A stretch of 64,000 nucleotides of DNA, taken from positions 8,060,001 through 8,124,000 of the forward strand of contig NZ_JACHND010000001.1 of assembly GCF_014205275.1 (NCBI RefSeq). Reading direction: 5' to 3'. Shown here piece by piece: positions 3,191 through 29,757 of the stretch. The notes below the pieces were generated by a model that was not told where the DNA came from, did not search any database, and worked only from the letters and a program-made list of their open reading frames with translations. How positions within the stretch are numbered: the first letter of the stretch is position 1; each line of letters begins with the position of its first letter. Source of the DNA: Sphaerisporangium siamense (GTDB lineage: Bacteria > Actinomycetota > Actinomycetes > Streptosporangiales > Streptosporangiaceae). The position numbers and the translations under genes are program-made.

Positions 3191-4582
3191 GTGACTCCTG
3201 AGGAAACCGGTACCGGGAACACAGGGGCCTCCGAGGCCTTCCACTACCTGGAGGCCATCGAGAAATCCATCACGGCACAGATGCCGAGGGCCGTCGACGA
3301 GCTGATGCGGCTCGTCTCCATCCCCTCGGTCGCCTTCCCCGGTCACCCCGAGGAGCCCGTGCTCGCCGCCGCCGCGGCCACCGAAGAGCTGCTGCGGAGC
3401 ACCGGCCTCCCCCACGTGCGGCAGATCCCCGTCGAGGGCAGCTTCCCGGCCGTGTACGCCGAGGCCCCCGCTCCCCCGGGCACGCCCACCGTCCTGCTGT
3501 ACGCGCACTACGACGTGCAGCCCGCCGGGGACCCGGCGCTGTGGCGCACGCCCCCGTTCGAGCCCACCCTGATCGACGGGCGGCTCTACGGGCGCGGCGC
3601 GGCCGACGACAAGTCGGGCATCATGGCGCACGTCCTCGCGCTGCGCGCCTTCCAGGGCCGGTTCCCGGTGGGCATCAAGGTCATCATCGAGGGTCAGGAG
3701 GAGTACGCCGGCGAGCGCCTGGAGGAGTTCGTCGAGCGGAACCCCGACCTGCTGCGCGCCGACGCCATCATCGTGGCCGACGTCGGCAACCCCACCGTGG
3801 GCGACCCCGCGGTCACCACCTCGCTGCGGGGCCTGGCGGCGTTCACGATCGAGGTGCGCGCGCTGAAGGAGTCCCTGCACAGCGGCTCCTTCGGCGGCGC
3901 GGCCCCCGACGCGCTGGCCGCGCTGATCCGCATGCTGGCGACCCTGCACGACGACAGGGGCGACGTCCGCGTGCCCGGCCTGCCGCGCGGCATATTCCCC
4001 GGCGCGGGACCCGATGAGGGCTCGTTCCGCCACGCGGCCGGGGTGCTGGACGGCGCCGCGCTGGTCGGCTCCGGCTCCCTCGCCGACCGTCTGTGGTCGT
4101 CCTACGCCATCACCGTCACCGGCCTGGACGTGCCGAGCGTGAACGGCGCGATCAACGCCGTCCAGGCGGTGGCGCGGGCCCGCGTGACGGTCCGCGTCCC
4201 TCCGGCGGGCGACCCGGGCAAGGCCGCCGCCGACGTGCTGGACTACCTGCGCACCGTCGCGCCGTGGGGCGTCCAGGTGTCGGTCACCGACCAGGTGCTC
4301 GGCTCGGGCTACCTGGCCGACGGCGGCGGGCGGGCGCGCACGGCGCTGAACCGCGCGCTGGAGCGGGCGTACGGGCGCGCGCCGCGCGACATCGGCGCGG
4401 GCGGCTCGATCCCGCTGGTGTCCACGCTGGCCAAGCAGTTCCCCGCGGCCGAGATCCTGCTGTTCGGCGCCGAGGACGAGGCCGCCGCGATCCACGCGCC
4501 GAACGAGCGGCTGGTCCTGGACGAGCTGCGCCGCACGGCGATCGCCGAGGCCCTGTTCCTGGCGGACTACGCCGCCTTCTGA
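3191..4582 (+). CDS. M20-family dipeptidase (metallopeptidase)
   Basis: Cytoplasmic zinc-dependent dipeptidase of the M20 family (CNDP/PepV-like), about 463 residues. Metal-binding and catalytic motifs appear in order: LLYAHYDVQPAGD (first metal His), GRGAADDKSG (bridging Asp), and IIEGQEEYAGE (catalytic Glu and metal ligand). A dimerisation/lid domain with ALKESLHSGSFGG follows, then the closing metal ligand AIHAPNERL. GTG 3191 is chosen because GCGGGGGGA lies 9 bases before it. An ATG at 3107 would add 28 residues unlike the family. The gene stands alone and faces the YbaB-like pair across a hairpin. Peptide specificity cannot be told. Confidence 0.92.
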   Translation: MTPEETGTGNTGASEAFHYLEAIEKSITAQMPRAVDELMRLVSIPSVAFPGHPEEPVLAAAAATEELLRSTGLPHVRQIPVEGSFPAVYAEAPAPPGTPTVLLYAHYDVQPAGDPALWRTPPFEPTLIDGRLYGRGAADDKSGIMAHVLALRAFQGRFPVGIKVIIEGQEEYAGERLEEFVERNPDLLRADAIIVADVGNPTVGDPAVTTSLRGLAAFTIEVRALKESLHSGSFGGAAPDALAALIRMLATLHDDRGDVRVPGLPRGIFPGAGPDEGSFRHAAGVLDGAALVGSGSLADRLWSSYAITVTGLDVPSVNGAINAVQAVARARVTVRVPPAGDPGKAAADVLDYLRTVAPWGVQVSVTDQVLGSGYLADGGGRARTALNRALERAYGRAPRDIGAGGSIPLVSTLAKQFPAAEILLFGAEDEAAAIHAPNERLVLDELRRTAIAEALFLADYAAF

Positions 4583-4616
4583 GTTCCCGGCCGCCACGCC
4601 GCCTTCTGGCCCGCCT

Positions 4617-4650
4617 GCTCGTCCCCGTCGCCCTCGGCGCGGGGACGAGC
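4617..4650. terminator. Bidirectional hairpin between convergent genes
   Basis: Perfect 10-bp stem GCTCGTCCCC / GGGGACGAGC with a 14-base loop, located between the stop of the peptidase and the stop of the YbaB-like gene. There is no T-run, as is usual in high-GC actinobacteria. Confidence 0.6.
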
Positions 4651-4674
4651 GCCGTTCTGCGGGCGTCCGCCGCG

Positions 4675-5076
4675 TCAGGGGCGGGTGAAGGAGCGGAGCA
4701 GGCGGCGGCACTCCTCCTCGACCGCCTCCGGGCCCGGCGCCCCGGCGGGCAGGATCTCGCCCAGCGCCCCGGCGACGAGGTCGCGGGCCTTGCGCTCGGC
4801 GTCGTCCTGGGCGCGGCCGACCGCGAGCAGCAGTTCCTCCGCCAGGGTGCGGCTGTCCGCGCGCGTGGCGCGCGGCGCGAAGACCACCTCGCGCACCAGG
4901 CCGTCCGCCGTCGTGGTGACCCGGACGCGGCCGTCCCCGGCCTCGCCCTCGCCGACGATCGCGGCCAGCTCCTCCTCGGCGTCCTCGGCCCACGCGAGGA
5001 CGCGCGCCGCGCGCTCGGCGTCCTGTTCGATCTCGCCGTCCCGCCAGGCCGCGGGATCGGGGTTCAAGCCGTACAC
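4675..5076 (-). CDS. YbaB/EbfC-like protein, second of pair
   Basis: A 133-residue, acidic, helix-beta-helix protein. The stretch RVRVTTTADGLVREVVFAPRATRADSRTLAEELLLAVGRAQDDAERKA fits the YbaB/EbfC fold, a nucleoid-associated dimer. In actinomycetes such copies often lie next to WXG100/ESX genes. The start is GTG 5076 because AAGGAG lies 5-6 bases before it; the GTG at 5082 overlaps that ribosome site. It follows its paralogue by 25 bp and is surely co-transcribed. It diverges from the secretion substrate and toxin genes. A DNA-binding role is family knowledge; a role in the toxin island is inference. Confidence 0.75.
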   Translation of the reverse strand: MYGLNPDPAAWRDGEIEQDAERAARVLAWAEDAEEELAAIVGEGEAGDGRVRVTTTADGLVREVVFAPRATRADSRTLAEELLLAVGRAQDDAERKARDLVAGALGEILPAGAPGPEAVEEECRRLLRSFTRP

Positions 5077-14510: not shown

Positions 14511-15998
14511 ATGCTCCGTAGCCGCGCGATCACGGCAGCGTGCGCCGTCACCGCTGGCGTGCTGGCATTTCTCGCTTCTCCGGCCAGTGCAGAACCCGAA
14601 TTTTCGGGCCAGTCCGCAAACTCCACAGCCAAGCCCCCGGCGGGTATGATCCAGGCCCTTCAGCGTGACCTGGGTCTCACCGCCGAGCAGGCCGAATCCC
14701 GCCTGATCAACGAGTCACGCCTGACGAACGTCGAGGCCCGGATCCGCAAGCAGCTCGGCAGCCGTTACGCCGGCTCCTGGCTCAGCGGCCCGACCTCCTC
14801 CACGCTGACGGTCGCCACCAGCGATTCGGCCTCGACGTCGTCGGTGTCGGGCGCGGGCGTCCAGGCCAAGGTCGTCCGGCACAGCCTGGCGTCCCTGAAC
14901 GCCGCCAAGGACGCCCTCGACCAGGCCAGCAGGAAGACCTCCACGAAGTCCACCCCGGTCTGGTACGTCGACGTGCGCACCAACGCCGTCGTCGTCAGGA
15001 CCCCCCAGGTCGCGGACGCCGAGGGGTTCATCGCGGCCAGCGGCGCCGACAGGAGCGCCGTCCGCGTCGAGGTCTCCGACGAGGCGCCGCGGACGTACTA
15101 CGACCTGCGCGGCGGCGAGGCGTACTACATCGGCAGCGGCAGCCGCTGCTCCATCGGCTTCCCGGTCACCCGGGGCACCCAGGGCGGCTTCGCCACCGCC
15201 GGCCACTGCGGCTCCACCGGCGCCTCCACCACCGGCTTCAACCGGGTCGCGCAGGGCAGCTTCCAGGGCTCCTCGTTCCCGGGCAACGACTACGCCTGGG
15301 TCGCGACGAACAGCAACTGGACCCCGCAGCCGTGGGTCATCCAGAACGGCGCCAACATCCAGGTCGCCGGCTCCACCGTCGCCGTGGAAGGCGCCTCGGT
15401 CTGCCGGTCCGGCTCGACCACCGGCTGGCACTGCGGCACCGTCCAGCAGCGCAACAGCAGCGTGACCTACTCGCAGGGCACCATCTACGAGGTGACCCGC
15501 ACCAGCGTCTGCGCCGAGCCCGGCGACTCCGGCGGCTCGTTCATCTCCGGCAGCCAGGCGCAGGGCGTGACCTCCGGCGGATCGGGCAACTGCTCCTCCG
15601 GCGGCACGACCTACTTCCAGCCGGTCAACGAGATCCTCTCGACCTATGGCCTGACGCTGAAGACCACCGGCGGCGGACCCGACCCGACGGGCTGCACCGG
15701 CTACCAGCAGAAGCTGTCCGGCACGCTGACGAGCAACCAGAGCCAGTACCAGCCGAGCGGCGGCTCCTACACCGCCAACGCCGGCGTGCACCGTCTCTGC
15801 CTCGACGGCCCCTCCGGCACGGACTACGACATCTACCTGCAGAAGCTCAACGGCTCCACCTGGACCGACGTCGCGAGCGGCACCACGCCCAACCCCGACG
15901 AGACCGTCAGCTACACCGGCACGGCGGGCACCTACCGGGTGCGCGTCCACGCCTACAGCGGCTCCGGCGCCTACACCCTGGGCCTGACCAAGCCGTAA
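14511..15998 (+). CDS. Secreted S1 serine protease (streptogrisin type) with PPC domain
   Basis: 495 residues. Signal peptide 1-27 (ending ASPASA). Prodomain about 30-195, including an alpha-lytic-protease pro-region motif (LQRDLGLTAEQAESRL). The mature chymotrypsin-like domain begins near YYDLRGGEAYYIGSGSRCS. Triad: His232 (ATAGHCG), Asp260 (PGNDYAW), Ser340 (EPGDSGGSF). Cysteine pairs 213/233, 298/308 and 334/361 fit the family disulfides. A C-terminal PPC (pre-peptidase C-terminal) domain spans about 395-495, following a short Gly/Pro linker, and may aid secretion or substrate binding. It is self-processed outside the cell. The neighbour at 16977 is a paralogue lacking PPC. Start supported by GGGAG. 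Confidence 0.95.
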   Translation: MLRSRAITAACAVTAGVLAFLASPASAEPEFSGQSANSTAKPPAGMIQALQRDLGLTAEQAESRLINESRLTNVEARIRKQLGSRYAGSWLSGPTSSTLTVATSDSASTSSVSGAGVQAKVVRHSLASLNAAKDALDQASRKTSTKSTPVWYVDVRTNAVVVRTPQVADAEGFIAASGADRSAVRVEVSDEAPRTYYDLRGGEAYYIGSGSRCSIGFPVTRGTQGGFATAGHCGSTGASTTGFNRVAQGSFQGSSFPGNDYAWVATNSNWTPQPWVIQNGANIQVAGSTVAVEGASVCRSGSTTGWHCGTVQQRNSSVTYSQGTIYEVTRTSVCAEPGDSGGSFISGSQAQGVTSGGSGNCSSGGTTYFQPVNEILSTYGLTLKTTGGGPDPTGCTGYQQKLSGTLTSNQSQYQPSGGSYTANAGVHRLCLDGPSGTDYDIYLQKLNGSTWTDVASGTTPNPDETVSYTGTAGTYRVRVHAYSGSGAYTLGLTKP

Positions 15999-16976: not shown

Positions 16977-18134
16977 ATGCTTCGTAGACGCACCGTCACC
17001 GCCGGATGCGCCTTGGCGATCAGCACTCTCACCATCCTGGCCACCCCGGCGCTCGCCGACCGCGACCCGCTGGCGGCCGGCTCGGCCCCGTCGCAGCCCG
17101 CGCCGACCATGGTGGACGCGATGAGCCGCGACCTCGGCATCACCAAGGAGCAGGCCGAGTCCCGCCTGCTCAACGAGGCGCGCCTCACCGGCACCGAGGC
17201 CAAGGTCCGGGAGAGCCTCGGCGGCGGCTTCGCCGGCTCCTGGCTCAGCGGGCCCACCTCCGCCACGCTCACCGTCGCCACCACCGACGCCGCCGCGGCG
17301 TCCAAGGTGTCCGGCACCGGCGTCCAGGCCGTGGTCGTCGAGCGCAGCCTCGCCCAGCTCAACGCCGTCAAGGACGCCCTGGACAACGCCGCCGCCAAGG
17401 CGCCGAAGTCCACCCCCGTCTGGTTCGTCGACGCGCGCACCAACAGCGTCGTCGTCCAGTCGTCCCAGCCCGCCGAGGCCGAGGCGTTCATCGCGGCCAG
17501 CGGCGCCGACAAGGCCGCCGTCCGCGTCGAGCGGTCGGGCGAGGCCCCGCGGACGTACTACGACCTGCGCGGCGGCGACGCCTACTACATCGGCAGCGGC
17601 AGCCGCTGCTCGATCGGCTTCTCGGTGCGGCGCGGCACCACGCCGGGCTTCGTCTCCGCCGGTCACTGCGGCAGGGCGGGCCAGACGACCTCCGGGTACA
17701 ACAGGGTCGCGCAGGGCTCCTTCCAGGGCTCCTCGTTCCCCGGCAACGACTACTCCTGGGTGTCGGTGAACAGCAACTGGACCCCGGCCGGCGTCGTCAA
17801 GGGCAGCGGCGGCGCCAACGTCGCCGTCCGCGGCTCCACGGTGGCCGTCGAGGGCGCCTCGATCTGCCGGTCCGGCTCGACCACCGGCTGGCGGTGCGGC
17901 ACCGTCCAGCAGCGCAACACCAGCGTGACCTACTCGCAGGGCACCGTGCGCGAGGTCACCCGCACCAACGTGTGCGCCGAGCCCGGCGACTCCGGCGGCT
18001 CGTTCATCTCCGGCAGCCAGGCGCAGGGCGTGACCTCCGGCGGATCGGGCAACTGCTCCTCCGGCGGCACGACCTTCTTCCAGCCGGTCAACGAGATCCT
18101 CTCGGTCTACGGCCTGACCCTCGTCACGAGCTAG
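16977..18134 (+). CDS. Secreted S1 serine protease (streptogrisin type), short paralogue
   Basis: 385 residues with the same plan as the upstream protease but ending after the catalytic domain, without PPC. Signal peptide to about residue 27 (ATPALA). Pro-region with MSRDLGITKEQAESRLL. Triad His230 (VSAGHCG), Asp258 (PGNDYSW), Ser339 (EPGDSGGSF). The six mature cysteines are kept. A 103-bp block (17973-18075) is identical to the first gene (15510-15612), far above the similarity elsewhere, which suggests recent gene conversion. It shares the upstream 17-base element, so both are likely co-regulated. Secreted and self-activated. Confidence 0.95.
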   Translation: MLRRRTVTAGCALAISTLTILATPALADRDPLAAGSAPSQPAPTMVDAMSRDLGITKEQAESRLLNEARLTGTEAKVRESLGGGFAGSWLSGPTSATLTVATTDAAAASKVSGTGVQAVVVERSLAQLNAVKDALDNAAAKAPKSTPVWFVDARTNSVVVQSSQPAEAEAFIAASGADKAAVRVERSGEAPRTYYDLRGGDAYYIGSGSRCSIGFSVRRGTTPGFVSAGHCGRAGQTTSGYNRVAQGSFQGSSFPGNDYSWVSVNSNWTPAGVVKGSGGANVAVRGSTVAVEGASICRSGSTTGWRCGTVQQRNTSVTYSQGTVREVTRTNVCAEPGDSGGSFISGSQAQGVTSGGSGNCSSGGTTFFQPVNEILSVYGLTLVTS

Positions 18135-18146
18135 CGCGCACCAGCC

Positions 18147-18185
18147 AAGGCGCCGCCGCCCCTCCCCCCAGGGCGGCGGCGCCTT
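18147..18185 (+). terminator. Strong hairpin after protease gene 2
   Basis: Perfect 15-bp stem (AAGGCGCCGCCGCCC and its complement) with a 9-base loop of mostly C, 12 bases after the stop. It separates the protease from the GntR operon. Confidence 0.8.
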
Positions 18186-18289
18186 CGTCGTTCCCGGGTG
18201 GCGGTTCTCCGGCGACCGCCACGGAACCCGCAGGTCGCAGCGCTCCCGTCCGCGCCCCGAGTGGCGCAATCTCCGCGTTATCCACCTTT

Positions 18290-18308
18290 TCCTACCTGCT
18301 AGATAGGA
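18290..18308 (+). promoter_or_regulatory. Possible GntR operator overlapping the operon promoter
   Basis: Dyad TCCTA-N9-TAGGA lies about 36 bases before the GntR start. TAGATA and TAGGAT within it could act as a -10. Position fits autoregulation. The consensus for this regulator is unknown. Confidence 0.35.
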
Positions 18309-18343
18309 TTAGGTGCGCAGACGCCGAGACGGACGGAGACGCC

Positions 18344-19114
18344 ATGGAAGCGAGCCGGGCGCGGGACGTCCCCGTGCTGACCGACGCCGCGCGACGCCGC
18401 GCCGACCGGGCCAGGCAGATCGCCGACCTGCTCCGCCGCCAGATCACCCACCGCCACTACGACGGCGGCCACCTGCCGCTGGAAGCGGCCCTCGCCCGCG
18501 AGTTCGGCACCTCGCGCAACACCATCCGCGAGGCCCTGGACCTGCTGCGCGAGGAAGGGCTGATCGACCGCTGCCCCGGCGTCGGCACGCGCGTGGCGGC
18601 CGAGAAGTACCCGCACGGGCTGCACCGGCTGCTCGGCCTGGCCGAGACCCTGCGCGAGCACGGCGAGGTGACCAACGAGGTGCGGACGATGGGGCTGATC
18701 CGCCCGCCCGCGGCGGTCAGCGCCCGCCTGGAGATCCCCGGAGGCGAACCGGTCGTCTACGTCGAGCGCGTGCGGCGGCTGAACGGGGTGCCCCTGTCCC
18801 TCGACCTGACCTACCTGGTGCGCGAGGTCGGCGAGCCGCTGTTCGAGGCCGACCTGGCGCACAACGACATCTTCGTGCTGCTGGAGCGGATCGCCGGACA
18901 GCCCCTGGGCATGGCCGAGCTCACGGTCGAGGCCGTCAACGCCGACGCCCACACCGCCGCCGTGCTGGACGCGGCCAGGGGGGCCGCGCTGCTCATGGTC
19001 GAGCGGCTCGCGCACCTGGCGGACGGGCGGCCGGTGGACCTGGAGTTCATCCGCTTCCGCGGCGACCGGCTCACCATGCGCGGCCATCTGACGCGGTCCG
19101 CCGGCGAGGCGTGA
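18344..19114 (+). CDS. GntR-family regulator (HutC/UTRA type)
   Basis: 256 residues. A winged HTH lies at about 20-90 (ARQIADLLRRQITHRHYDGG, LPLEAALAREFGTSRNTIRE, ALDLLREEGLIDRCPGVGTR). A UTRA ligand domain lies at about 105-250 (PAAVSARLEIPGGEPVVYVE, LEFIRFRGDRLTMRGHL). ATG 18344 has GGAG 6 bases upstream. It is the first gene of a tightly packed run with a ferredoxin, ABC importer and flavoprotein, so it is probably the substrate-responsive switch of that run. UTRA domains bind small acids or sugars; the ligand here is unknown. Confidence 0.9.
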   Translation: MEASRARDVPVLTDAARRRADRARQIADLLRRQITHRHYDGGHLPLEAALAREFGTSRNTIREALDLLREEGLIDRCPGVGTRVAAEKYPHGLHRLLGLAETLREHGEVTNEVRTMGLIRPPAAVSARLEIPGGEPVVYVERVRRLNGVPLSLDLTYLVREVGEPLFEADLAHNDIFVLLERIAGQPLGMAELTVEAVNADAHTAAVLDAARGAALLMVERLAHLADGRPVDLEFIRFRGDRLTMRGHLTRSAGEA

Positions 19115-19159
19115 CCGGAGAACCCCCCTGCGACCGGAGAACCCCTGCGAGGAGCATCG

Positions 19160-19387
19160 ATGACCCTGGCGAACACCCGGCTCGACGTGCCGGTGACGAT
19201 CAACGAGGCGCTGTGCATCGACGGCTGCACGCTCTGCGTGGACGTCTGCCCGCTGGACTCCCTGGCCATCCACGAGGTGAGCGGAAAGGCGTACATGCAC
19301 GTGGACGAGTGCTGGTACTGCGGGCCGTGCGCCGACCGGTGCCCGGTCGACGCCGTCACCGTCAACATCCCCTATCTGCTGCGGTGA
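19160..19387 (+). CDS. Two-cluster 4Fe-4S ferredoxin (AprB-like)
   Basis: 75 residues. It has two cluster motifs: C19-x3-C23-x2-C26-x3-C30-P and C51-x2-C54-x2-C57-x3-C61-P. The extra residue in the first motif and the HVDECWYCGPCADRCP segment recall the beta subunit of APS-reductase-like enzymes rather than a standard bacterial ferredoxin, though AprB is longer. It is cytoplasmic, and the probable electron partner of the FAD protein encoded four genes downstream. AGGAG precedes ATG 19160. The gene lies 45 bp after the GntR gene and 11 bp before the lipoprotein gene, within one operon. Confidence 0.88.
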   Translation: MTLANTRLDVPVTINEALCIDGCTLCVDVCPLDSLAIHEVSGKAYMHVDECWYCGPCADRCPVDAVTVNIPYLLR

Positions 19388-19398
19388 GAGGGCACACG

Positions 19399-20790
19399 AT
19401 GCGCGCGAGGATCCGCGCCGCCGCGGCCGCCCTGGCGGCGGTCGCGTTCCTGCCAGGCTGCTCGGTCGCGGGGAACGCCTCCTCCAGCGACAAGATCACC
19501 GTGGTCGTCGGCTATCAGTCGAAGACCATCAACACCGTGACCGCGGGCACGCTGCTGCGGTCGCTCGGCTACCTGGAGCGGCGGCTCGGCCCGAAGTACC
19601 GGGTCGAGTGGCAGGACCACGACACCGGCGCGCCGATCACCGCCAAGATGGTCGCCGGGAAGATCGACATCGGCTCGATGGGCGACTACCCGCTGCTGAT
19701 CAACGCCTCGCGCACGCAGTCCGCCGAGCCCGCGCGCACCGCGCTGGTGTCGGTCACCGGGTACAACCTGCGCGGCGGCCTCAACATGGTCGTCGTCGCG
19801 CCCGGCTCGCGCGCCACGACGCTGGCCGACCTGAAGGGCGGCAAGGTCTCGGCGAGCGTCGGCTCGGCGGGGCACGGCACGCTCGTCCAGGCGCTGCGGC
19901 GGGCGGGGATCGACGGCGTCGAGACCGTGAACCAGCAGCCGCCGGTGGGGGCCTCGGCCCTGCAGGCGGGGGACGTCGCGGCGTACGCGCAGTTCGTGGC
20001 CTGGCCGGGGCTGCTGGTCTTCAAGGGGCAGGCGCGCCTGCTGTACGACGGGTCCGCGCTCGGGGTGCCGACCTTCCACGGCGTCGTCGTGCGCAGGGCG
20101 TACGCCGGGGAGCGGCCCGAGGTCGTGCGGGCGTTCCTCGGCGCGCAGATCGACGCGACCCGGTACCTGCACGAGCACCCGCTGGAGGCCGCGCAGACCG
20201 TGGCGAAGGCGACCGGGCTGCCCGCCGAGGTGGTCTACCTCTACAACGGCCCGAACGGCATCGCGACGTTCGACGTCACGCTCAAGCCCCGGCTGGTCGA
20301 GGCGCTGCGGAACGACGTGCCCTACCTGGCGTCCATCGGCGGCGACTTCAAGCCCGTCGAGGTGTCGCGCTTCGCCGACGACTCGTTCCTGCGCGCCGCG
20401 TACGGCCCCTCGTACGGCGCCGACGTGGCCGCCACCGCGAACCCGGCGCGGATCACCGGCGCCGACTCGGCGTGTGGCGTGCCGGTGAACGACGCGGGCA
20501 CGGCGGGCGAGCTGTGGGTCTCGGGGACGGCGACCCGGCCCGCCGCGACCCCCACCTGCCTGCTGCGGCAGATCCGCGCCCTCGGCGGGACCTACCGCGC
20601 CGCCTACGTCCCCGACGCGGCCACGGGCACCCGCTGGTTCGCCGACAAGGCGGTCTGGGTGCGCGACCCCGCCAGGGACGCCACCGCCCGGTTCCTGCCC
20701 TTCACCACCGCGGCCGGGGCCGGGGAGTACGTGTCCCGGCACGACGGGGCGCGGGTCGTGGACTTCCGCACCGCGCTGAAGGAGGCGTGA
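19399..20790 (+). CDS. ABC substrate-binding lipoprotein with NosL-like C-terminal domain
   Basis: 463 residues. Signal sequence with a lipobox-like LPGC (Cys21). Residues about 30-345 form an SsuA/NMT1-type periplasmic binding fold ([54 protein letters not shown]), as in sulfonate, nitrate and taurine importers. Residues about 357-463 look like a fused NosL domain: ACGVPVND (compare the CGMPV copper motif), [60 protein letters not shown]. NosL is a Cu(I)-binding lipoprotein. Such a fusion is unfamiliar to me. The stop overlaps the next start (TGATG). Ligand unknown. Confidence 0.8.
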
Positions 20791-21635
20791 TGCCGGTCGG
20801 CACGGCGCCCGGCCCGCTCGCCCGGGCGCGGCAGGCGCCGCCCGCCAAGGCCCGCCGGGCGGGACGGCGGAGCCGGCTCGTCAGGGTCGCGTCCCTCGCA
20901 GCCGCCGCGGCGCTGTGGCAGTTCCTGACCGCCGCGGACGTGCGGCTCTGGTTGCGCTTCGACCGGCTGCCCTCGCCCTCGGAGGTCGCGGGCACGTTCG
21001 GGCGGCGGCTGTCGGAGTCCGGCTACTACCTCGACCTGGCGCAGAGCGTGATCCGCATCCTCAGCGGGTTCACGCTCGCGGCCGTGCTCGGCGTCGCGGT
21101 GGGCGTCCTCGTGGCCCGCTCGCCGCGTGCCGGCGACGTGCTGCTGCCGCTGCTGGAGGTCGCGCGGCCGATCCCGGCGATCGCGCTGGTCCCCATCGCG
21201 ATCCTCGTCTTCCCGCGCGACGAGCAGGGCATCGTGTTCATCACGTTCGCCGCCGCCTTCTTCCCCGTCATGGTGAGCACCCGCCACGCCGTGCGGGCGC
21301 TGCCCACCCTGTGGGAGGACGCGGTGCGCACCATGGGCGGCGGGCGGCGGCGCGTGCTGGTGAACGTGATCCTGCCGGGCGTGCTGCCCGGCGTCTTCGG
21401 CGGGCTGTCGGTCGGCATGGGCGTGGCCTGGATCTGCGTGATCTCCGCGGAGATGATCTCCGGCGAGTTCGGCGTCGGCTACCGGACCTGGCAGGCGTAC
21501 ACGGTCGTCGACTACCCGGGGGTGATCGTCGGCATGGCGACCATCGGCCTGCTCGGCTGGCTGACCTCGGCCGGCGTCGAGCTGCTCGGGCGGCGGCTCA
21601 CCCGGTGGCTGCCGCGCGCCGAGGGTTCCTCGTGA
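20790..21635 (+). CDS. ABC transporter permease (SsuC/TauC type)
   Basis: 281 residues with a basic N-terminus and about six membrane helices. The cytoplasmic EAA-type loop [24 protein letters not shown] marks contact with the ATPase. This is the binding-protein-dependent transport inner-membrane family used for sulfonates, nitrate and taurine. Its start overlaps the stop of the binding-protein gene, and its end overlaps the GTG of the ATPase gene, so all three are translationally coupled. [20 protein letters not shown] is the usual helix 4 region. Confidence 0.92.
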
Positions 21636-22390
21636 CCTCCGGCACCGCCGCCAGGCGGGCGGCGCCGGCCAGGACCGGCATGGGCGTGCGCCTCACCGGC
21701 GTGTCGCTGGGGTACGGCGGGCGGCGGGTGCTGGGCGAGGTGGACCTGGAGGCACGGCCCGGCGAGGTGCTGGTGGTCGTGGGGCCGTCCGGTTCCGGCA
21801 AGTCCACGATCCTGCGCGCCGTGGCCGGGCTGCTCGCGCCGGACAGCGGCACGGTGACCGCCGACGGTGTGCCCGTCACCGGCCCGGGACCCGACCGCGC
21901 CATGGTCTTCCAGGAGGACGCCCTGCTGCCCTGGCGCACCGTGCGCGGCAACGTCGAGCTGCCGCTGGACATCCGCGGCGTGCCGAGGACCGCGCGGCGC
22001 GCCGCCGCCCAGGACTGGATCGAGCGCGTGGGGCTCGCGGGCTGGGAGGACCGCCTCCCCCGCGAGCTGTCCGGCGGGATGCGCCAGCGTGTCCAGCTCG
22101 CCCGCTCCCTGGCGGGCGCTCCCCGCGCCGTCCTCATGGACGAGCCGTTCGGCGCCCTGGACGCCCAGACGCGCGGCGTGATGCAGCGCCTGCTCGCCCA
22201 GGTGCTGGAGGACGCGCCCGCCACCGTCGTCTTCGTCACCCACGACGTGGAGGAGGCGCTGCTACTCGCCGACCGCGTCGCCGTGCTCGGCCGGGGCGGG
22301 GTGCACGCCGTCCACGACAACGACCGCGCCCCCGGGGCCGGCGCCGCGCTGCGGGGCAGAATCCTCGCCGAACTGCAGGAGCTTTCATGA
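21632..22390 (+). CDS. ABC transporter ATP-binding protein (SsuB/TauB type)
   Basis: 252 residues. Walker [14 protein letters not shown]-loop [14 protein letters not shown], signature [16 protein letters not shown], Walker [13 protein letters not shown] and H-loop [12 protein letters not shown] are all present, so it should hydrolyse ATP. The DALLPWRTV sequence is characteristic of nitrate/sulfonate/taurine importer ATPases. GTG 21632 overlaps the permease stop (GTGA); ATG 21680 is a possible later start. Its own stop overlaps the flavoprotein start (ATGA). Confidence 0.93.
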
Positions 22391-25248
22391 TGGAGATCCC
22401 GTCCCTGGACGACCGGCTGCGCCTCTCCTGCGAGGTCCTGGTCGTGGGCGGCGGCACCGCGGGGACGATGGCCGCCATCACCGCCGCCGAGCGCGGCGCC
22501 GACGTGATCCTGCTGGAGAAGGCGCACGTCCGGCACAGCGGCGCGCTCGCCATGGGCATGGACGGCGTCAACAACGCCGTCATCCCCGGCAGGGCCACCC
22601 CCGAGGACTACGTCGCCGAGATCACCCGGGCCAACGACGGCGTGGTCAACCAGCGCACCGTCCACCAGACGGCCACCCGCGGGTACGAGATGGTGCGGCG
22701 GCTGGAGCGCTACGGCGTCAAGTTCGAGAAGGACGAGCACGGCGAGTACAACGTGCGCCGCGTGCACCGGTCCGGCAGCTACGTGCTGCCCATGCCGGAG
22801 GGCAAGGACGTCAAGAAGGTGCTCTACCGCGTGCTGCGGCGCCGCGAGATCCGCGAGCGCGTCCGCGTCGAGAACCGCGTCATGCCGGTCCGCGTGCTCG
22901 TCCGGGACGGCCGCGCGGTGGGGGTCGCCGGGTTCGACACCCGTTCCGGGCGGTTCGTCACGGTGTCGGCGGGCGCGGTCATCCTCGCCACCGGGGCCGG
23001 CGGACGCCTCGGCCTGCCCGCCAGCGGCTACCTGTACGGCACCTACGAGAACCCCACCAACGCCGGGGACGGCCACGCCATGGCCTACCACGCCGGAGCC
23101 GAGCTCAGCGGCATCGAGTGCTTCCAGATCAACCCGCTGATCAAGGACTACAACGGGCCCGCGTGCGCCTACGTGGCCAACCCGTTCGGCGGCTACCAGG
23201 TGAACAACCAGGGCGAGCGGTTCGTCGACTGCGACTACTGGTCGGGCCAGATGATGGCCGAGGTCGCCAAGGAGATCGGGTCCGCGCGCGGGCCCATCTA
23301 CCTCAAGCTCAGCCACCTGCCCGGCGAGACGATCACGGCGCTGGAGGACATCCTGCACACCACCGAGCGCCCGACGCGGGGCACCTTCCACGCCGGGCGC
23401 GGGCACGACTACCGCACCCACGACGTCGAGATGCACATCTCCGAGATCGGGCTGTGCGGCGGGCACTCGGCGTCCGGCGTGTGGGTGGACGAGAACGGCG
23501 CCACCACCGTGCCCGGCCTGTACGCGGCCGGGGACCTGGCCTGCGTGCCGCACAACTACATGATCGGGGCGTTCGTCTTCGGCGACCTGGCCGGAGCCCA
23601 CGCCAGCCAGGCCTTCGTCCCGCCGGGGTCGCTGCCCGAGGACCAGATCGCCGACGCCCACGCGCTGGTCTACCGGCCGCTGCGCAACCCCGGCGGGCCG
23701 CCGCAGCCGCAGGTGGAGTACAAGCTGCGCCGGTTCGTCAACGACTACGTGGCCCCGCCGAAGTCCGGCGCCAAGCTGCGGATCGCACTGGAGACGTTCG
23801 AGCGCATGCGCGGCGAGATCGCGGCGATGGGCGCGCGGACCCCGCACGAGCTGATGCGCTGCGTGGAGGTGGACTTCATCCGCGACTGCGCCGAGATGGC
23901 GGCGCGCGCCTCGCTGGTGCGCGACGAGAGCCGCTGGGGCCTCTACCACGACCGCGCCGACGTGCCCGGGCGCGACGACGAGCGCTGGCTCTACCACCTG
24001 AACCTGCGCAAGGACGCCTCCGGCCGCATGTCCTTCGTCAAGCGGCCCGTGGAGCCGTACCTGGTGCCCGTGGAAGGCTTCACGCCCCGCGCCACCGCAC
24101 CGGTCGAGCTCGGCCCCCACGACCCCTCCCCCGCCGGGACGCCGGCCGCGCCGGACGGCGCCGGGCCCGCGCACGACGCCGGCGGGCCGGGGAACCCGCG
24201 CGGGCGGACCGCGGCGGCGCGGCGGCCGGCCGTCGAGACCATCGGGCGCTCCCCGCGCATCCTCGAACTCGTGCGGCTGGCCGAGGAGCAGCCGCCGCTG
24301 TCCCGCCTGGCCCCGTACCTGTCCGACCCCGACCCCAAGGTGCGGCGCGCCGCGGTGGTCACGCTCACCGAGACCACGCCGGACGGCGTCGGCGAGGCGC
24401 TGGTCCAGGCGCTCGGCGACGCCCACGGCACCGTGCGCCGGGCCGCCGCCACGGGGCTCAGGGAGCTTCTGGAGATCCTCCCTCCGTCCTCCGAGTTCGG
24501 ACGCCTGCTCCACGGCGCCGCCACGGCCGGCGACCCTGTGGCGCGCGCCGCCGTCCTGGAGGCGCTGCGCGCCCTGCGGCTCGGCGGCTCGGAGGTGTTC
24601 GCGACCGCGCTCGCCGACCCCGACCCCGGCGTCCGCATCGCCGCCGTCCGCGGGCTGGTCTCCTTGGACGACGCCGTGGCGGTGGCCCGCGCCGCCGCCG
24701 ACCCCTCCCGAGAGGTCCGCGTCACCGCCGCCAAAGCCCTCGGCACGATGACCACGGATGCGGATGCGGTCACTGGGCAGGAGACGGACGAGGACTTCGG
24801 CGGGGACATTCGCAGGGACGTCGGCGATGGTGGGGACGTTCGGTCGCCGGTGGTGGCGGCGCTCGCCGCGCTGGCCGAGGATCCGGAGCCGCTCGTCCGC
24901 GCGGCGGCCCTGGGGGCGTCCGCGGGCGTCGGCGCGCCTCCTCCGCTGCTCGGGACCGCCGTGCGCTGCCTGGCCGCCGAGGCGAGCTGGGAGGTGCGCG
25001 TGGGCGCGGCGCGGGGACTGTCGGCGGCGCCCGCCGAGGTGGCGATCGGCCCGCTGGCCTCTGCCCTGGCCGACCCGAACCTCGACGTCCGCAAGGCGGC
25101 CGTGCTCGCGCTGTCCGGTTTCGTGGCCGTCCACCCCGACGCCGCCGACGCCCTGCGCCCCGCCCTGGCCGACTCCGACGCGGACGTGCGCGCCTACGCC
25201 CGCCGCGCCCTCGACACCACGCGGCTAGCGGGGCAGGCGGCGCCATAG
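22387..25248 (+). CDS. AprA/FrdA-like FAD oxidoreductase fused to HEAT repeats
   Basis: 953 residues. Residues 15-560 are a FAD-dependent oxidoreductase of the fumarate reductase/succinate dehydrogenase/APS reductase flavoprotein group: dinucleotide motif [75 protein letters not shown] and [16 protein letters not shown]. After a Pro/Gly/Ala linker (about 580-625), residues 635-950 consist of alpha-helical HEAT/PBS-lyase-type repeats ([64 protein letters not shown]). It is coupled to the ABC ATPase. The ferredoxin in the operon is the likely redox partner. The 3' end overlaps dprE2 by 24 bp. Substrate unknown; a sulfur compound is a guess based on AprA and the importer type. Confidence 0.85.
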
Positions 25249-26058
25249 CGTGCGCGGCAGCACGCGCATCGCCGTGAAGACCAGGCGGAGCCCGCGCGGC
25301 ACCCACACGACGGGGGAACCGTCCCGCAGGCCCTGGACGATCGCGACGGCCACCTCGGCCGGGGTCGTCGCCATCGGGGCGGCGGGGAGGCCCTTGGTCA
25401 TGCGGCCCCGGACGAACCCCGGCCGGACCACCATCACGCGGGCGCCCGAGCCGTGCAGGGCGTCGCCGAGCCCTTGGGCGAAGCCGTCCAGGCCCGCCTT
25501 CGCGGCGCCGTACACGAAGTTCGCCCGCCGCACGCGCACGCCCGCGACCGAGGAGAGCACGACGAGCGTGCCGTGCCCCTGCTCGCGCAACCGGCGGGCC
25601 ACCGACAGGCCGGCGGAGACGTGGCCGCCGAGGTTGACGGCCATCGACTCGGCCGCCGACACCGGGTCGTCCTCGTAGGCGGCCTGGTCGCCGAGCACGC
25701 CGAACGCGGCGATCACGACGTCGAGGTCGCCGGCCAGGCGCACGGCGGTGTCGATCACCTTGGCGTGCGTCTCGGGGTGGGCGGCGTCGAAGTCGATCTC
25801 GTGCACCTCGGCCCCGAGCCGCGCGAGCCGCCCGACGGGCCCGTTGTGGTGCGCGTCGCCGCCCCCTTCCCGGTCGGCGGCGCCGGCCGCGGGCCCGTCC
25901 GCGCCGGCGGGGCGCGACGCCGTGACCGGAGTGGGGCGGGTCGCCAGGACGACCGTGCGGGCGCCCGCGCGGACCAGGAGCTCGGCCGTCGCGAGGCCGA
26001 TCTCGCTGCGTCCGCCGAGCAGCAGCACCGTGTCGACGGAGCCGAGGGCGTTCTTCAC
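25225..26058 (-). CDS. dprE2: Decaprenylphospho-ribose 2-epimerase, reductase subunit (SDR)
   Basis: 277 residues from GTG 26058, which has GAGGAGG 8 bases upstream (a GTG at 26115 would add 19 residues encoded by the repeat). SDR fold with TVLLLGGRSEIGLATAELL (cofactor loop), VIAAFGVLGD, VVLSSVAGVRVRRANFVYGAAKAG (catalytic Ser, Tyr and Lys). DprE2 reduces the 2-keto intermediate made by DprE1, yielding decaprenylphospho-arabinose for arabinan. An unusual Gly/Ala-rich insert (PAGADGPAAGAADREGGGDA) sits after beta-2. The gene follows dprE1 with a 32-bp tandem repeat at the junction. Convergent overlap with the flavoprotein gene. Confidence 0.9.
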   Translation of the reverse strand: MKNALGSVDTVLLLGGRSEIGLATAELLVRAGARTVVLATRPTPVTASRPAGADGPAAGAADREGGGDAHHNGPVGRLARLGAEVHEIDFDAAHPETHAKVIDTAVRLAGDLDVVIAAFGVLGDQAAYEDDPVSAAESMAVNLGGHVSAGLSVARRLREQGHGTLVVLSSVAGVRVRRANFVYGAAKAGLDGFAQGLGDALHGSGARVMVVRPGFVRGRMTKGLPAAPMATTPAEVAVAIVQGLRDGSPVVWVPRGLRLVFTAMRVLPRTLWRRLPR

Positions 26059-26148
26059 CGGTCCGGCCTCCTCGCCAGATCGCACGTCACGGGCCGAGCC
26101 TCCTCGCCGGGTCACACGTCACAGGCCGAGCCTCCTCGCGAGGTCGGA
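26055..26148. repeat. 32-bp tandem repeat at the dprE1/dprE2 junction
   Basis: Three head-to-tail units of exactly 32 bp start at 26055, 26087 and 26119 (the third partly inside dprE1). Each begins TCAC and holds GGCC-CTCCTCG, i.e. on the coding strand a GAGGAGG ribosome site followed by GTGA. The third unit carries the dprE1 stop, and the first carries the dprE2 start. The units are diverged by a few bases. Confidence 0.8.
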
Positions 26149-27444
26149 GCGGAACACGCCCTCGGGGTCCAGGCGCCGTCGTATCCTCGCCCATTCGGCG
26201 AGGCGCGGGTACATCACGGGCAGCAGCTCGGCCCGCATGCGGGCGTCCTTGGCCAGGTAGAGACGCCCCCCGGCCTCGGCCACCCACGTGTCGAAGACGC
26301 GCAGCAGGCGCGCGAGCCCCGGCAGACCGGCCGGGATGTCCAGCGCGAGCGTCCAGCCGGGCAGCGGGAAGGAGAGCATGCCCGGCGTGCCCGGGCCGAA
26401 CCGCTTGAGCACGGGGACGAACGACACCACGCCCTCGGCCGACAGCCGGGACACCACCCGCCGCAGGGTGCCCTCCGCGCCGAACGGGACGGCGAACTGG
26501 TACTGGACGAACCCCCGTGATCCGTACATCCGATTCCATCCCTCCATGAAGTCCAGAGGATGGAAGAACGGCGCGATGTCCTGGATGACGCGCCGCTCAC
26601 GGGCCTTGGCGTACCAGGCCTGGTTGAACGCGCGCACGGTGACCTGGTTGAGCAGCCCGTCCGGCGCCCACGGCGGGGCGGCCACCCGGGCCGCCGGGGC
26701 GAACGCCAGCGGGTCCCCGGCGTGGGGGATCTCGTCACGGCGGGCGTGGTCGCCGCGCGTCAGCACGCCGCGTCCCATGCGCGCGCCGCGCGTGAGCAGG
26801 TCGACCCACGCCACGGTGTAGCGGTGGCCGTCGTCGGTCGCGGCCATGACCTCCAGCGTGTGGTCCAGGTCGCGGGTGCGCGTCACCTCCACGGCCACCC
26901 GGGAGGTCTCGATGGGCACGCAGCCGAAGCTCGCCTCGACGACGACGCCGGTGAGGCCCATGCCGCCGACGGTGGCCCAGAACGCCTCGTCGGACGGCGT
27001 CAGCACGCGGGTCGTCCCGTCGGCCGTGAGCAGCGTGAGCGAGCGGAGGTGGGCGCCGAAGGAGGAGTCCAGGTGGTGGTTCTTGCCGTGCACGTCGGCG
27101 GCGACGGCCCCGCCCACGGTGACGTGCCGGGTTCCCGGCGTGACCGGGACGAACCAGCCCTTGGGCACCAGGCCGGTCATCAGGTCGTGCAGGCTCGTCC
27201 CCCCGGAGGCGGTGACGACGCCGGTGGCGGGGTCGAGCGACCAGCGCGGCTCCAGCCGCGTGAGGTCGGCGACGAGCCCGCCGGCGTTCTGCGCGGCGTC
27301 GCCGTAGGCCCGGCCGAGTCCGCGGGCGATGAGGCCGCGCGGCGGCGACCCGGCGACCAGGGCCGCGAGCTCGGCCACGGTGCGGGGCGCGACGAGCGTG
27401 GCGGGGGTGGGCGCGGTGCGTCCCCAGCCGGTCAGGAAGGTCAT
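26119..27444 (-). CDS. dprE1: Decaprenylphospho-ribose 2-oxidase (DprE1)
   Basis: 441 residues. FAD-binding PCMH domain (ARGLGRAYGDAAQNAGG, PVTPGTRHVTVGGAVAADVH, GKNHHLDSSFG) and a substrate domain with the ALO-type C-terminus (GGRLYLAKDARM, DPEGVFRSDLARRLGL). It oxidises the C2 hydroxyl of decaprenylphospho-ribose on the membrane, the first half of epimerisation. The conserved lysine of the LYLAKD motif is present. The residue equivalent to Cys387 of the M. tuberculosis enzyme (GWNICVDFP there) is Ala367 here (GWTLALDIP), as reported for M. avium. ATG 27444 has GGTGAGG upstream. Operon with dprE2. Confidence 0.93.
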   Translation of the reverse strand: MTFLTGWGRTAPTPATLVAPRTVAELAALVAGSPPRGLIARGLGRAYGDAAQNAGGLVADLTRLEPRWSLDPATGVVTASGGTSLHDLMTGLVPKGWFVPVTPGTRHVTVGGAVAADVHGKNHHLDSSFGAHLRSLTLLTADGTTRVLTPSDEAFWATVGGMGLTGVVVEASFGCVPIETSRVAVEVTRTRDLDHTLEVMAATDDGHRYTVAWVDLLTRGARMGRGVLTRGDHARRDEIPHAGDPLAFAPAARVAAPPWAPDGLLNQVTVRAFNQAWYAKARERRVIQDIAPFFHPLDFMEGWNRMYGSRGFVQYQFAVPFGAEGTLRRVVSRLSAEGVVSFVPVLKRFGPGTPGMLSFPLPGWTLALDIPAGLPGLARLLRVFDTWVAEAGGRLYLAKDARMRAELLPVMYPRLAEWARIRRRLDPEGVFRSDLARRLGL

Positions 27445-27499: not shown

Positions 27500-29710
27500 C
27501 TATTTGCCCGGTTCGGGGTCCCGGGGAAGGCCGAGCATGCGCTCGGCGATGATGTTGAGCTGGACCTCGGTGGTGCCGCCGTAGATGGTCATGGCGCGGG
27601 TGGACAGCACGGCGCGGTTCCAGTAGCCCGCGTCGCCGAGCTTCATGTCGGCGGCGGTCACCGCGGACGTGCCGAGCAGGCCCACCGCGCACTCGGCGAC
27701 GTTCTGGGCGTGCGAGGTGGACAGCAGCTTGCGCACCGAGGCGTCGGCGCCCGGCTCGGACCCGGCGAGCTGCTTCAGCGTGACGCGCAGGCTGAGCGCG
27801 TTGATGGAGTGGCTCTCGCAGACGACGTCGGCGAGCTGGAGCCGCTCGGCGGGGGTGAGGTCGCGGCCGAGCCGGGAGACCAGGCCGAGCAGGTCGGGGA
27901 CCGAGGAGCCGGTGCCGCCCGACCCCGACGACAGGGACACGCGCTCGTTGGACAGGGTGTTGCGCGCGACCCGCCAGCCGTCGCCGACCTCGCCCACGAC
28001 CAGGTCGCCGGGGACGAACACGTCGTCGAAGAACACCTCGTTGAAGAGGTTCTCGCCGGTCATCTCGGTCAGCGGGCGCACGGTGACGCCGGGGGCCTTC
28101 ATGTCCACGATGAAGTAGGTGATGCCGTCGTGCTTGGGCTTGGACGGGTCGGTCCTGGCGACGCAGATGCCCCATTCGGCGACGTGCGCGATGGACGTCC
28201 AGACCTTCTGGCCGTTGAGCCGCCACCCGCCCTCGACCTTCTCCGCCTTCATCTGCAGGGAGGCCAGGTCGGAGCCCGCGCCCGGCTCGCTGAAGAGCTG
28301 GCACCAGATCAGCTCGCCGGACAGCGTGGCGGGCAGGAAGCGTTCCTGCTGCGCCGGGGTGCCGTACGCCGCGATGGACGGCACCACCCAGGCGCCGATG
28401 ATCATCTGGGGCAGGCGCACCCGGGCGGCCTTCAGCTCCTGGTGGATGAGCACCTGCTCCAGCGGGGTCGCGCCGCGCCCCCACGGGGCGGGCAGGTAGG
28501 GCATCACGAAGCCCTTGGCCGCGAGGGCGCGCCGCTGCTCCTTGCCCTCCAGCGCCGCGATCTCGGCGATCTCGCCGCGGATCGCGGCGCGCATCGCCTC
28601 GGACTCCTCGGGGAGGTCGATGCGCATCTCGCGGGTGGTCCCCGACACGGCGTGCGCGGCCACCGCCTCCGCCCACGCGGCGGACGGGCCGAGCAGCGCG
28701 CGCAGCGTCAGCGCGCGGCGGTAGTGGAGGTGGGCGTCGTGCTCGAAGGTGTAGCCGATGCCGCCGAAGATCTGGATGGCGTCCTTGGCGCACCGGACGG
28801 CGGCGTCCGGGGCCATGACCCCGGCGACGGCGGCGGCGTACCCGAGCTCGGCGCCGGTGGCGCGGGTGGCGTCCCAGACGGTGGCGCGGGCCTGCTCCAG
28901 GGCGACGAGCATGCGGGCCGCCTTGTGCTTGACGCCCTGGAACTGGCCGATGGGACGGCCGAACTGCACGCGCACCTTGGCGTACTCGGCGGCGGCCCGC
29001 ACGCACCAGGCGGCGACGCCGGCCGCCTCGGCGCCGAGCAGGATCGCCGCGGTGTCGCGGACGGCCGCGCCGGTCAGGCCGTCGAGCACCCGCTCCCCCG
29101 GCACGCGCACGGAGCTCGCCTCGACCCTGGCGACGCCGCGGGTCAGGTCGAGGCTCGCGAGCGGGGTGACGGTCAGGACGTCCTTGGACAGGGCCACCCA
29201 TTCCTCGCCCCGGTCGGTGCGCACCGGCAGCACGAGGACGTCCGCGAGCGCGCCGCCGAGGACGGGTTCGACGGCGCCGTCCACGGTCAGCACGCCCTCG
29301 CCGGAGCGCACGCCGGTCAGCGCGCCGCCGAGGGCGACCGCGCCGGTCAGGGAGCCGTCGGCCAGGCCGGGCAGCAGCTCGGCGCGGGCCTTGCCGTCGG
29401 AGGCGAGGATCACCGCCGAGGCGAGCACGGTCGGCACGTACGGGCCGGGGGCGACGCGCTCGCCGAGCGCCTCGACGGCCACCGCGGTCTCCAGCAGGCC
29501 GAAGCCGGCGCCGCCGTACTCCTCGGGAACGTGCAGGCCGAGCAGTCCTTGGCCGGCCAGAGCGGGCCAGAAGGGGGGACGCTCCTCGGTCCCGGCGCCG
29601 ACGGCCGTGCCCACCGCCTCGCGCACGGTCTCGGGCCGGATGGCGCGCTCGGCCCAGCCGGTCACGGACTCGCGCAGCGCCTCGTGCTCCTCGCTCAATC
29701 CGATCGCCAT
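27500..29710 (-). CDS. Fused two-domain acyl-CoA dehydrogenase
   Basis: 736 residues containing two acyl-CoA dehydrogenase units in one chain. The first (about 1-360) carries YAKVRVQFGRPIGQFQGVKH and AIQIFGGIGYTFEHDAHLHY. The second (about 380-736) carries WCQLFSEPGAGSDLASLQ, NGQKVWTSIAHVAEWGI and AMTIYGGTTEVQLNIIAERM. Fused enzymes of this kind (for example FadE34 in mycobacteria) act on steroid or bile-acid side chains and bind one FAD per pair. That substrate is inference. ATG 29710 has GGAGGG upstream. The next gene on this strand, dprE1, is unrelated. The two acyl-CoA synthetases 14 kb away might serve the same pathway. Confidence 0.9.
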   Translation of the reverse strand: MAIGLSEEHEALRESVTGWAERAIRPETVREAVGTAVGAGTEERPPFWPALAGQGLLGLHVPEEYGGAGFGLLETAVAVEALGERVAPGPYVPTVLASAVILASDGKARAELLPGLADGSLTGAVALGGALTGVRSGEGVLTVDGAVEPVLGGALADVLVLPVRTDRGEEWVALSKDVLTVTPLASLDLTRGVARVEASSVRVPGERVLDGLTGAAVRDTAAILLGAEAAGVAAWCVRAAAEYAKVRVQFGRPIGQFQGVKHKAARMLVALEQARATVWDATRATGAELGYAAAVAGVMAPDAAVRCAKDAIQIFGGIGYTFEHDAHLHYRRALTLRALLGPSAAWAEAVAAHAVSGTTREMRIDLPEESEAMRAAIRGEIAEIAALEGKEQRRALAAKGFVMPYLPAPWGRGATPLEQVLIHQELKAARVRLPQMIIGAWVVPSIAAYGTPAQQERFLPATLSGELIWCQLFSEPGAGSDLASLQMKAEKVEGGWRLNGQKVWTSIAHVAEWGICVARTDPSKPKHDGITYFIVDMKAPGVTVRPLTEMTGENLFNEVFFDDVFVPGDLVVGEVGDGWRVARNTLSNERVSLSSGSGGTGSSVPDLLGLVSRLGRDLTPAERLQLADVVCESHSINALSLRVTLKQLAGSEPGADASVRKLLSTSHAQNVAECAVGLLGTSAVTAADMKLGDAGYWNRAVLSTRAMTIYGGTTEVQLNIIAERMLGLPRDPEPGK

Positions 29711-29744
29711 GACACCCTCCGATTCGGCCCTCAGAACGCGTGAC

Positions 29745-29757
29745 AGAATCATATTCT
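29745..29757 (-). promoter_or_regulatory. Palindrome in the acyl-CoA dehydrogenase promoter
   Basis: AGAAT-CAT-ATTCT lies 35 bases before the ATG and overlaps minus-strand TATGAT and TAGAAT hexamers that could serve as -10. It looks like a TetR-type operator of the KstR/FadR sort, but the spacing differs from the KstR consensus by one base. No clear -35. Confidence 0.4.

Follow-up and report, generated by a model that had tools for sequence, protein, structure and literature searches.

We analyzed a stretch of 64,000 nucleotides (nt) from Sphaerisporangium siamense (assembly GCF_014205275.1, contig NZ_JACHND010000001.1, positions 8,060,001 to 8,124,000 of the forward strand), here called the window, and tentatively read the six genes at 18344-25248 as a GntR-controlled sulfur-acquisition operon that combines import of the sulfonate type with ferredoxin-linked release of sulfite. 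The genes lie on one strand and encode, in this order, a GntR regulator, a ferredoxin, a lipoprotein, a permease, an ATPase and a flavoprotein fused to HEAT repeats. Intergenic distances of 45, 11, -4, -4 and -4 nt from 5' to 3' confirmed the six-gene set, its tight spacing and the overlaps at the last three junctions (4 nt each), as described in an earlier note made from the sequence alone. Import coupled to redox conversion of the imported compound, also proposed there, was supported as the most economical reading. The genes and the flavoprotein domains are as follows.

18344-19114, + strand: GntR/UTRA (HutC-type) transcriptional regulator of 256 residues (UTRA 114.1 bits, GntR 55.8 bits)
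19160-19387, + strand: 2[4Fe-4S] ferredoxin of 75 residues, beta-subunit-like, with eight Cys and Trp52 (Fer4 dicluster domain)
19399-20790, + strand: lipoprotein substrate-binding protein (NMT1-type binding domain; SsuA/TauA-type domain at about residues 31-335, followed by a C-terminal domain)
20787-21635, + strand: ABC permease, GTG start with ATG at 20790 as an alternative (BPD_transp_1 73.5 bits)
21632-22390, + strand: ABC ATPase, GTG start (ABC_tran 106.7 bits)
22387-25248, + strand: flavoprotein-HEAT fusion of 953 residues (NCBIfam NF010374/PRK13800)
22435-23547, + strand: FAD-binding domain (FAD_binding_2), flavoprotein residues 17-387 (domain match)
23722-24066, + strand: Succ_DH_flav_C domain, flavoprotein residues 446-560 (domain match)
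24253-25236, + strand: HEAT-repeat domain, flavoprotein residues about 623-950 (domain match and structure model)

In the mechanism that we propose, uptake of an organosulfur compound of the sulfonate type would fall to the SsuA/TauA-like lipoprotein, the permease and the ATPase. The flavoprotein, as alpha subunit, would pair with the 2[4Fe-4S] ferredoxin, as beta subunit, in a redox enzyme that resembles in its build dissimilatory adenosine 5'-phosphosulfate (APS) reductase and the 3'-phosphoadenosine 5'-phosphosulfate (PAPS) reductase of Methanothermococcus thermolithotrophicus (MtPAPSR). In the reductive direction, the clusters would deliver electrons by way of ferredoxin Trp52 to the flavin adenine dinucleotide (FAD), whose N5 would attack the sulfonyl sulfur so that sulfite would be released for assimilation. 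The HEAT module could be a separable partner or docking domain, and GntR would control the operon. A nitrite/sulfite reductase homologue is encoded in the same genome.

Based on the NCBIfam models, the flavoprotein exceeded the cut-offs of NF010374/PRK13800 (1547.8 versus 1196 bits, residues 2-943) and NF006131/PRK08275 (863 versus 587 bits, residues 12-563) and no other cut-off among the 25 models shown. It stayed far below the aprA model TIGR02061 (118.1 versus 641.75 bits) and NF005331 (PRK06854, PAPS reductases of the MtPAPSR type; 266.2 versus 557 bits), and was also below the succinate dehydrogenase/fumarate reductase models shown other than its own family's (TIGR01812, for example, 136.7 versus 567.3 bits). 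The top solved relatives of its profile were a PAPS reductase alpha subunit (277 bits), AprA (197) and SdhA (135). In maximum-likelihood trees, the 28 rows of the family formed one clade (support 99/99). Its neighbours were AprA, MtPAPSR and four rows of the PRK06854 type; the rows of SdhA, the Frd-like protein and NadB lay on the opposite side (100/98 and 100/100). One row, the AsfA candidate discussed below, had a branch length of 10, which made its placement uninformative, so the tree was rebuilt without it and the clade was retained (97/98). AprA, SdhA and NadB sit on long end branches, and joins of this kind can mislead, yet the order of the profile scores agrees with the trees. Over 13 family members from three phyla the mean column identity was 70%, which suggests that the family acts on one substrate. 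A structure model of the flavin domain, made with 46 close relatives, reached a mean predicted local distance difference test (pLDDT) of only 67.3, with 23-47 over residues 201-390, and its Foldseek list, headed by PAPS reductase at TM 0.50 by target, was not used as evidence.

Active-site residues were surveyed in 101 loci (the window, 80 actinobacterial and 20 plasmid loci). We took the AprA site numbers to be Asn74, Trp234, Arg265, His398 and Arg317 and checked the first four by letter in the 2fja sequence. The alignment register was anchored by these four and Gln145 of Archaeoglobus fulgidus AprA, all letters of which fit 2fja; Gln145 is named in the accessible part of PMC10322725. The equivalents of Asn74 (Asn62) and His398 (His360) were kept in 101/101 members, and Lys253 was found in 100, the remaining one having Glu. 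The Asn74 contrast is not firm, because the letter of the organism's own SdhA opposite it was Ala in one alignment and Asn in the other, and the His398 equivalent is common also to SdhA and NadB. At the position of Arg317, Met was observed in one alignment and the register shifted in another; Val stood opposite Gln145 in the four family rows displayed. All members carry Leu251 opposite Arg265 and Tyr220 opposite Trp234, where the six AprA, PAPSR and PRK06854 rows all have Arg and Trp, so a function as APS or PAPS reductase is unlikely. All 101 members also have NPL where the organism's own SdhA and NadB carry HPT. As far as aligned residues can tell, the predicted pocket matches neither APS/PAPS reductases nor succinate/fumarate enzymes, and the name "fumarate reductase/succinate dehydrogenase" given by NCBI to NF010374 and NF006131 was not supported by our tests. 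The earlier note had likened the flavoprotein and ferredoxin to both APS-reductase and fumarate-reductase pairs. The AprA-like flavoprotein with its ferredoxin partner was borne out, but the kinship to fumarate reductase was not, given the separation from SdhA, the Frd-like protein and NadB and the NPL motif. Nor did the flavoprotein group with a characterised enzyme that would already explain the operon, the nearest being the APS/PAPS reductases that have the Arg missing here.

In the ferredoxin, eight Cys and the motif DECW[YF]C were present in 96 of the 101 loci; the five misses were four loci cut by contig ends and L117, where a ferredoxin is present outside the pattern. Through the beta subunit of an Ilyobacter pair, Trp52 of the window ferredoxin aligns with Trp42 of MtPAPSR beta, a residue for which electron transfer to FAD has been proposed (PMC10322725, accessible part). 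Profile scores favour polyferredoxins and place AprB and PAPSR beta 7th and 8th of 8, so the argument lies in the conserved Trp and not in the score.

The four relatives of the binding protein found by sequence in the PDB are of the SsuA/TauA type, one of them deposited as a nitrate transport protein and titled SsuA. Its top five fold relatives are SsuA or TauA, followed by bicarbonate and nitrate binders. The curated cut-off of the SsuA-family model TIGR01728 was not reached, and NMT1/THI5 was the best Pfam match. By sequence and fold comparison, then, the nearest relatives of the binding protein are SsuA and TauA, and the predicted importer is of the sulfonate type; of the sulfonate/nitrate label given previously, the sulfonate part stood and the nitrate part appears less likely. 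The C-terminal domain matched NosL in some relatives (L141, 32.6 bits against a cut-off of 24; L142 and L024, 20.9 and 17.5 bits, both below it), with no such match in the window protein. A copper site was considered and rejected, as no Cys is conserved across the alignment.

Relatives were sampled from one genome per species, taking the best 80 of at least 591 encoding stretches, all 80 actinobacterial by title. The complete six-gene set was found in 72 of them (71 by open reading frame (ORF) scan, with L117 added by tblastn), a contig start truncates the operon in four (L059, L105, L106 and L114), and in the other four (L060, L066, L072 and L124) the importer is missing and the ferredoxin gene lies directly 5' of the flavoprotein-HEAT gene. 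These importer-less loci point to ferredoxin and flavoprotein-HEAT as the core of the system, with an importer that may be encoded at another site or missing. Additional partner genes in actinobacteria were considered and rejected: with rough gene calling, ORF clusters beyond the six genes that occur in at least five loci were confined to mycobacteria or Nocardia; other recurrent clusters were, as far as checked, overlapping frames inside the operon. Of 396 genomes drawn from the phylum, 12, among them the organism's own, exceeded the family cut-off, so the distribution is patchy. In plasmid records 124 matches were obtained at E<=1e-5; among the best 60 rows, 51 showed at least 52% identity and nine less than 30%. 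L072 also has a second flavoprotein stretch, 30% identical, at 3739-4746, and in L150 (actinobacterial genome G288) a copy is split over frames with a stop and is apparently decayed.

The fusion of flavoprotein and HEAT repeats, reported in the earlier note, is real: both parts lie in a single ORF in 77 of the 80 actinobacterial loci, the other three (L057, L117 and L119) ending within the ORF. It was seen only in actinobacterial loci. In the 18 loci read from outside the actinobacteria that encode a close relative (17 annotated, L026 without annotation), HEAT is a separable module with a gene of its own (313-333 residues), always accompanied by a ferredoxin, and a long binding protein, permease and ATPase are within reach in 15, the exceptions being L019, L022 and L023. 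Five loci (L020, L021, L027, L028 and L142) show the order GntR, flavoprotein, ferredoxin, binding protein, permease, ATPase, HEAT; the others differ. Since the parts lie side by side as single genes elsewhere and are joined in one phylum, they probably work together. The HEAT domain was modelled mostly at pLDDT >90, with a poor loop at 793-816. That it might dock the ferredoxin or another partner, as the earlier note suggested, is a guess. A defence role was considered for this part and rejected, as only a generic HEAT-ARM model matched it (45.6 bits).

The loss of Arg265 weighs against the sulfite release proposed here and is a weak link in it. It also favours the explanation that ranks next, somewhat improbable in our judgement, in which the same import and partner proteins serve a flavoenzyme that oxidises (dehydrogenates) its substrate and hands the electrons to the ferredoxin. 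That substrate may be a sulfonate or a sulfinate, or else an anion or heterocycle that contains no sulfur and enters via an NMT1/THI5-type binding protein, as the best Pfam match would allow. Dehydrogenases occur in the superfamily, and L024 has genes for FdxA and for a ferredoxin-NADP reductase in the vicinity. Oxidation is harder to reconcile with the trees, which group the flavoprotein with APS/PAPS reductases and not with dehydrogenases, and with the sulfonate binders that are the nearest solved relatives of the binding protein.

In another explanation, flavoprotein and ferredoxin would be a mere electron-transfer pair that supplies a separate monooxygenase, the role suggested for AsfAB when arylsulfonates are desulfonated. 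We consider this unlikely, even though the asf cluster is made of the same kinds of parts (binding protein, ABC transporter, reductase/ferredoxin and regulator, according to the accessible part of PMC4267179), SsuD-like monooxygenases, all below the SsuD cut-off, are encoded elsewhere in the genome, and LLM oxidoreductases adjoin relatives in L020, L138 and L142. The conserved core has no monooxygenase, and the residues that never vary around the flavin point to a specific small-molecule substrate. Moreover, the AsfA candidate of Cupriavidus metallidurans CH34, whose asfAB genes are placed on the second replicon by the accessible part of PMC2864759, is only 25% identical to the window flavoprotein and was rejected as its characterised homologue. 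This candidate was inferred from its position beside the ferredoxin gene (the only Fer4_7 match over the cut-off); its four NCBIfam matches at 1e-20 exclude the models of our family, and the accompanying AsfB candidate lacks the Trp. The whole CH34 megaplasmid gave a single tblastn match at E<=1e-5, 26.6% identical. An assimilatory APS or PAPS reductase seems very improbable: a PAPS reductase is the closest solved relative and a related PRK06854 alpha-beta pair lies beside cysC, cysD and a GTP-binding protein gene in Ilyobacter, but both Arg265 and Trp234 are replaced throughout, the scores fall far under the aprA and PRK06854 cut-offs, and the operon has an importer in place of a sulfurylase or APS kinase. 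Least credible of all is that the flavoprotein belongs to a fumarate reductase or a succinate dehydrogenase, in line with the family name of the two models with exceeded cut-offs, since the other models of that kind among the 25 shown are not reached, NPL replaces HPT, the clade is separate, the six genes include neither an SdhB-type iron-sulfur subunit nor a membrane subunit, and another SdhA-type protein is encoded in the genome.

Control by GntR would act through the region upstream of gntR, where three elements were located.

18291-18307, no strand assigned: imperfect inverted repeat CCTACCTGCTAGATAGG, CCTAC-type pattern, candidate GntR operator
18261-18269, + strand: box GTGGCGCAA, conserved upstream of gntR
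18198-18208, + strand: second upstream box GTGGCGGTTCT, from the alignment of upstream regions

The strict CCTAC-type repeat was found in 7 of 71 upstream regions (the window and six loci) against 0.47 expected from shuffles, probably an undercount because the start codons of many loci were extrapolated; related forms of the repeat are visible in the alignment. In 51 of the 71 regions (a raw count without shuffle control), GTGGCGYAA is found no more than 300 nt 5' of gntR, and the extended box pattern has a single occurrence in the whole genome, at the window operon. In an alignment of 19 upstream regions, a pair of GTGGCG boxes with a CGCAGGTCA-like sequence between them was observed in the window (18198-18269) and in other loci. 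A riboswitch or RNA leader was considered for these boxes and rejected, as no Rfam gathering score was reached in six of the 80 loci; window positions 18000-18420 gave sub-threshold Rfam matches only. The regulator itself reached no cut-off among the 23 NCBIfam models listed.

Some neighbours of the relatives point to sulfur. Among the 17 annotated non-actinobacterial loci, TauE/SafE is encoded near the relatives in L021, L029, L141 and L143, and YeiH or a "putative sulfate exporter" in L029, L141 and L143; three of these four exporter loci are cyanobacterial, which leaves few independent cases. A TSUP transporter lies about 7 kilobases away in L028. Besides its LLM oxidoreductase, L142 has a 3-mercaptopropionate dioxygenase and a rhodanese nearby. 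DUF971, or the same domain under another name, was found in L022, L024, L027, L028, L137-L140 and L142, and Mrp/NBP35 in L019, L029, L141 and L143, neighbours that presumably fit iron-sulfur cluster supply. The cyanobacterial relatives have a LysR regulator of about 670 residues (L029:5562-7577, L141:6307-8343, L143:6577-8577). In L029 its C-terminal half matches the window binding protein and, weakly, the NMT1-type domain, as if this LysR sensed the imported compound itself.

In the window, dprE2 and dprE1 (NCBIfam cut-offs exceeded) lie at 25225-27444 on the - strand, convergent with the operon, and the 3' ends of dprE2 and the flavoprotein gene overlap by 24 nt. They are followed at 27500-29752 (- strand) by a gene for a 750-residue protein resembling two acyl-CoA-dehydrogenase halves, which reached no cut-off among the 17 models listed. 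Directly upstream of the operon is a tandem pair of similar secreted serine-protease-like genes (14511-15998 and 16977-18134) with the motif GDSGGS in their translations; the first copy has a longer C-terminus, and the pair gave no NCBIfam match at 1e-10. A strong GC hairpin at 18145-18185, 3' of the second protease gene, is probably a terminator and matched 6C RNA below threshold only.

The operon had been called undescribed. NCBI family models for the flavoprotein do exist, and the parts and folds are known, but a search excluding most subscription journals found no paper on the function or on this combination. The word PRK13800 occurs in PMC8401276, and the flavoprotein is not mentioned in the accessible parts of PMC7661421 and PMC8557817, which deal with actinobacteria on organosulfur sources. 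If sulfite release is correct, the operon would represent a new ferredoxin-flavin route by which organic sulfur becomes available to soil actinomycetes, rhizobia, Acinetobacter and cyanobacteria, and a function would be gained for a protein family named fumarate reductase by NCBI. To our knowledge, the known aerobic routes to sulfonate sulfur use O2-dependent oxygenases (SsuD, TauD), and this could be a new bacterial way to obtain sulfur from organic sulfonates. A broader proposal, which we regard as doubtful, is that the APS-reductase fold has a third branch with a function of its own, hidden under the fumarate-reductase name in actinobacteria, proteobacteria and cyanobacteria: a ferredoxin-dependent, O2-independent sulfonate reductase on a HEAT scaffold that would cleave C-S bonds via an N5-sulfite adduct.

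Among known systems, ssuABCDE and tauABCD are sulfonate systems that share the binding-protein fold and the importer type with the window operon, which differs in having neither an SsuD nor a TauD oxygenase and in the extra C-terminal domain of its binding protein. AprAB (2fja, 3gyx) has in common with it the superfamily, the Asn74 and His398 equivalents and a two-cluster ferredoxin partner. However, the family replaces Arg265 by Leu, Trp234 by Tyr and, in the four rows displayed, Gln145 by Val, the window ferredoxin has 75 residues against 166 in 3gyx_B, and the operon is devoid of nucleotide-pathway genes. MtPAPSR (8a8o; PMC10322725, accessible part) resembles it in a sequence-related FAD alpha subunit and in a ferredoxin beta subunit that holds two [4Fe-4S] clusters and a Trp put forward as electron carrier, whereas the window family has the active-site Arg and Trp replaced, a different and longer stretch at the presumed PAPS site, a HEAT module, and an importer in place of sulfate-activation genes. 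On the Ilyobacter plasmid pILYOP02 (L144:5303-10634), an alpha-beta pair of the PAPSR type, scoring 861 bits to 8a8o alpha, was observed together with cysC, cysD and a gene for a GTP-binding protein, an arrangement suggestive of MtPAPSR-type sulfate assimilation by a bacterium. The arylsulfonate utilisation genes asfRABC of Pseudomonas putida S-313, with asfAB in C. metallidurans, share a reductase/flavoprotein, a ferredoxin, a sulfonate-type importer and a regulator, the latter being of the LysR type there (PMC4267179, accessible part) and GntR in the window operon. The family models themselves differ in the module that sets the actinobacterial loci apart, NF006131/PRK08275 being without the HEAT part and NF010374/PRK13800 with it.

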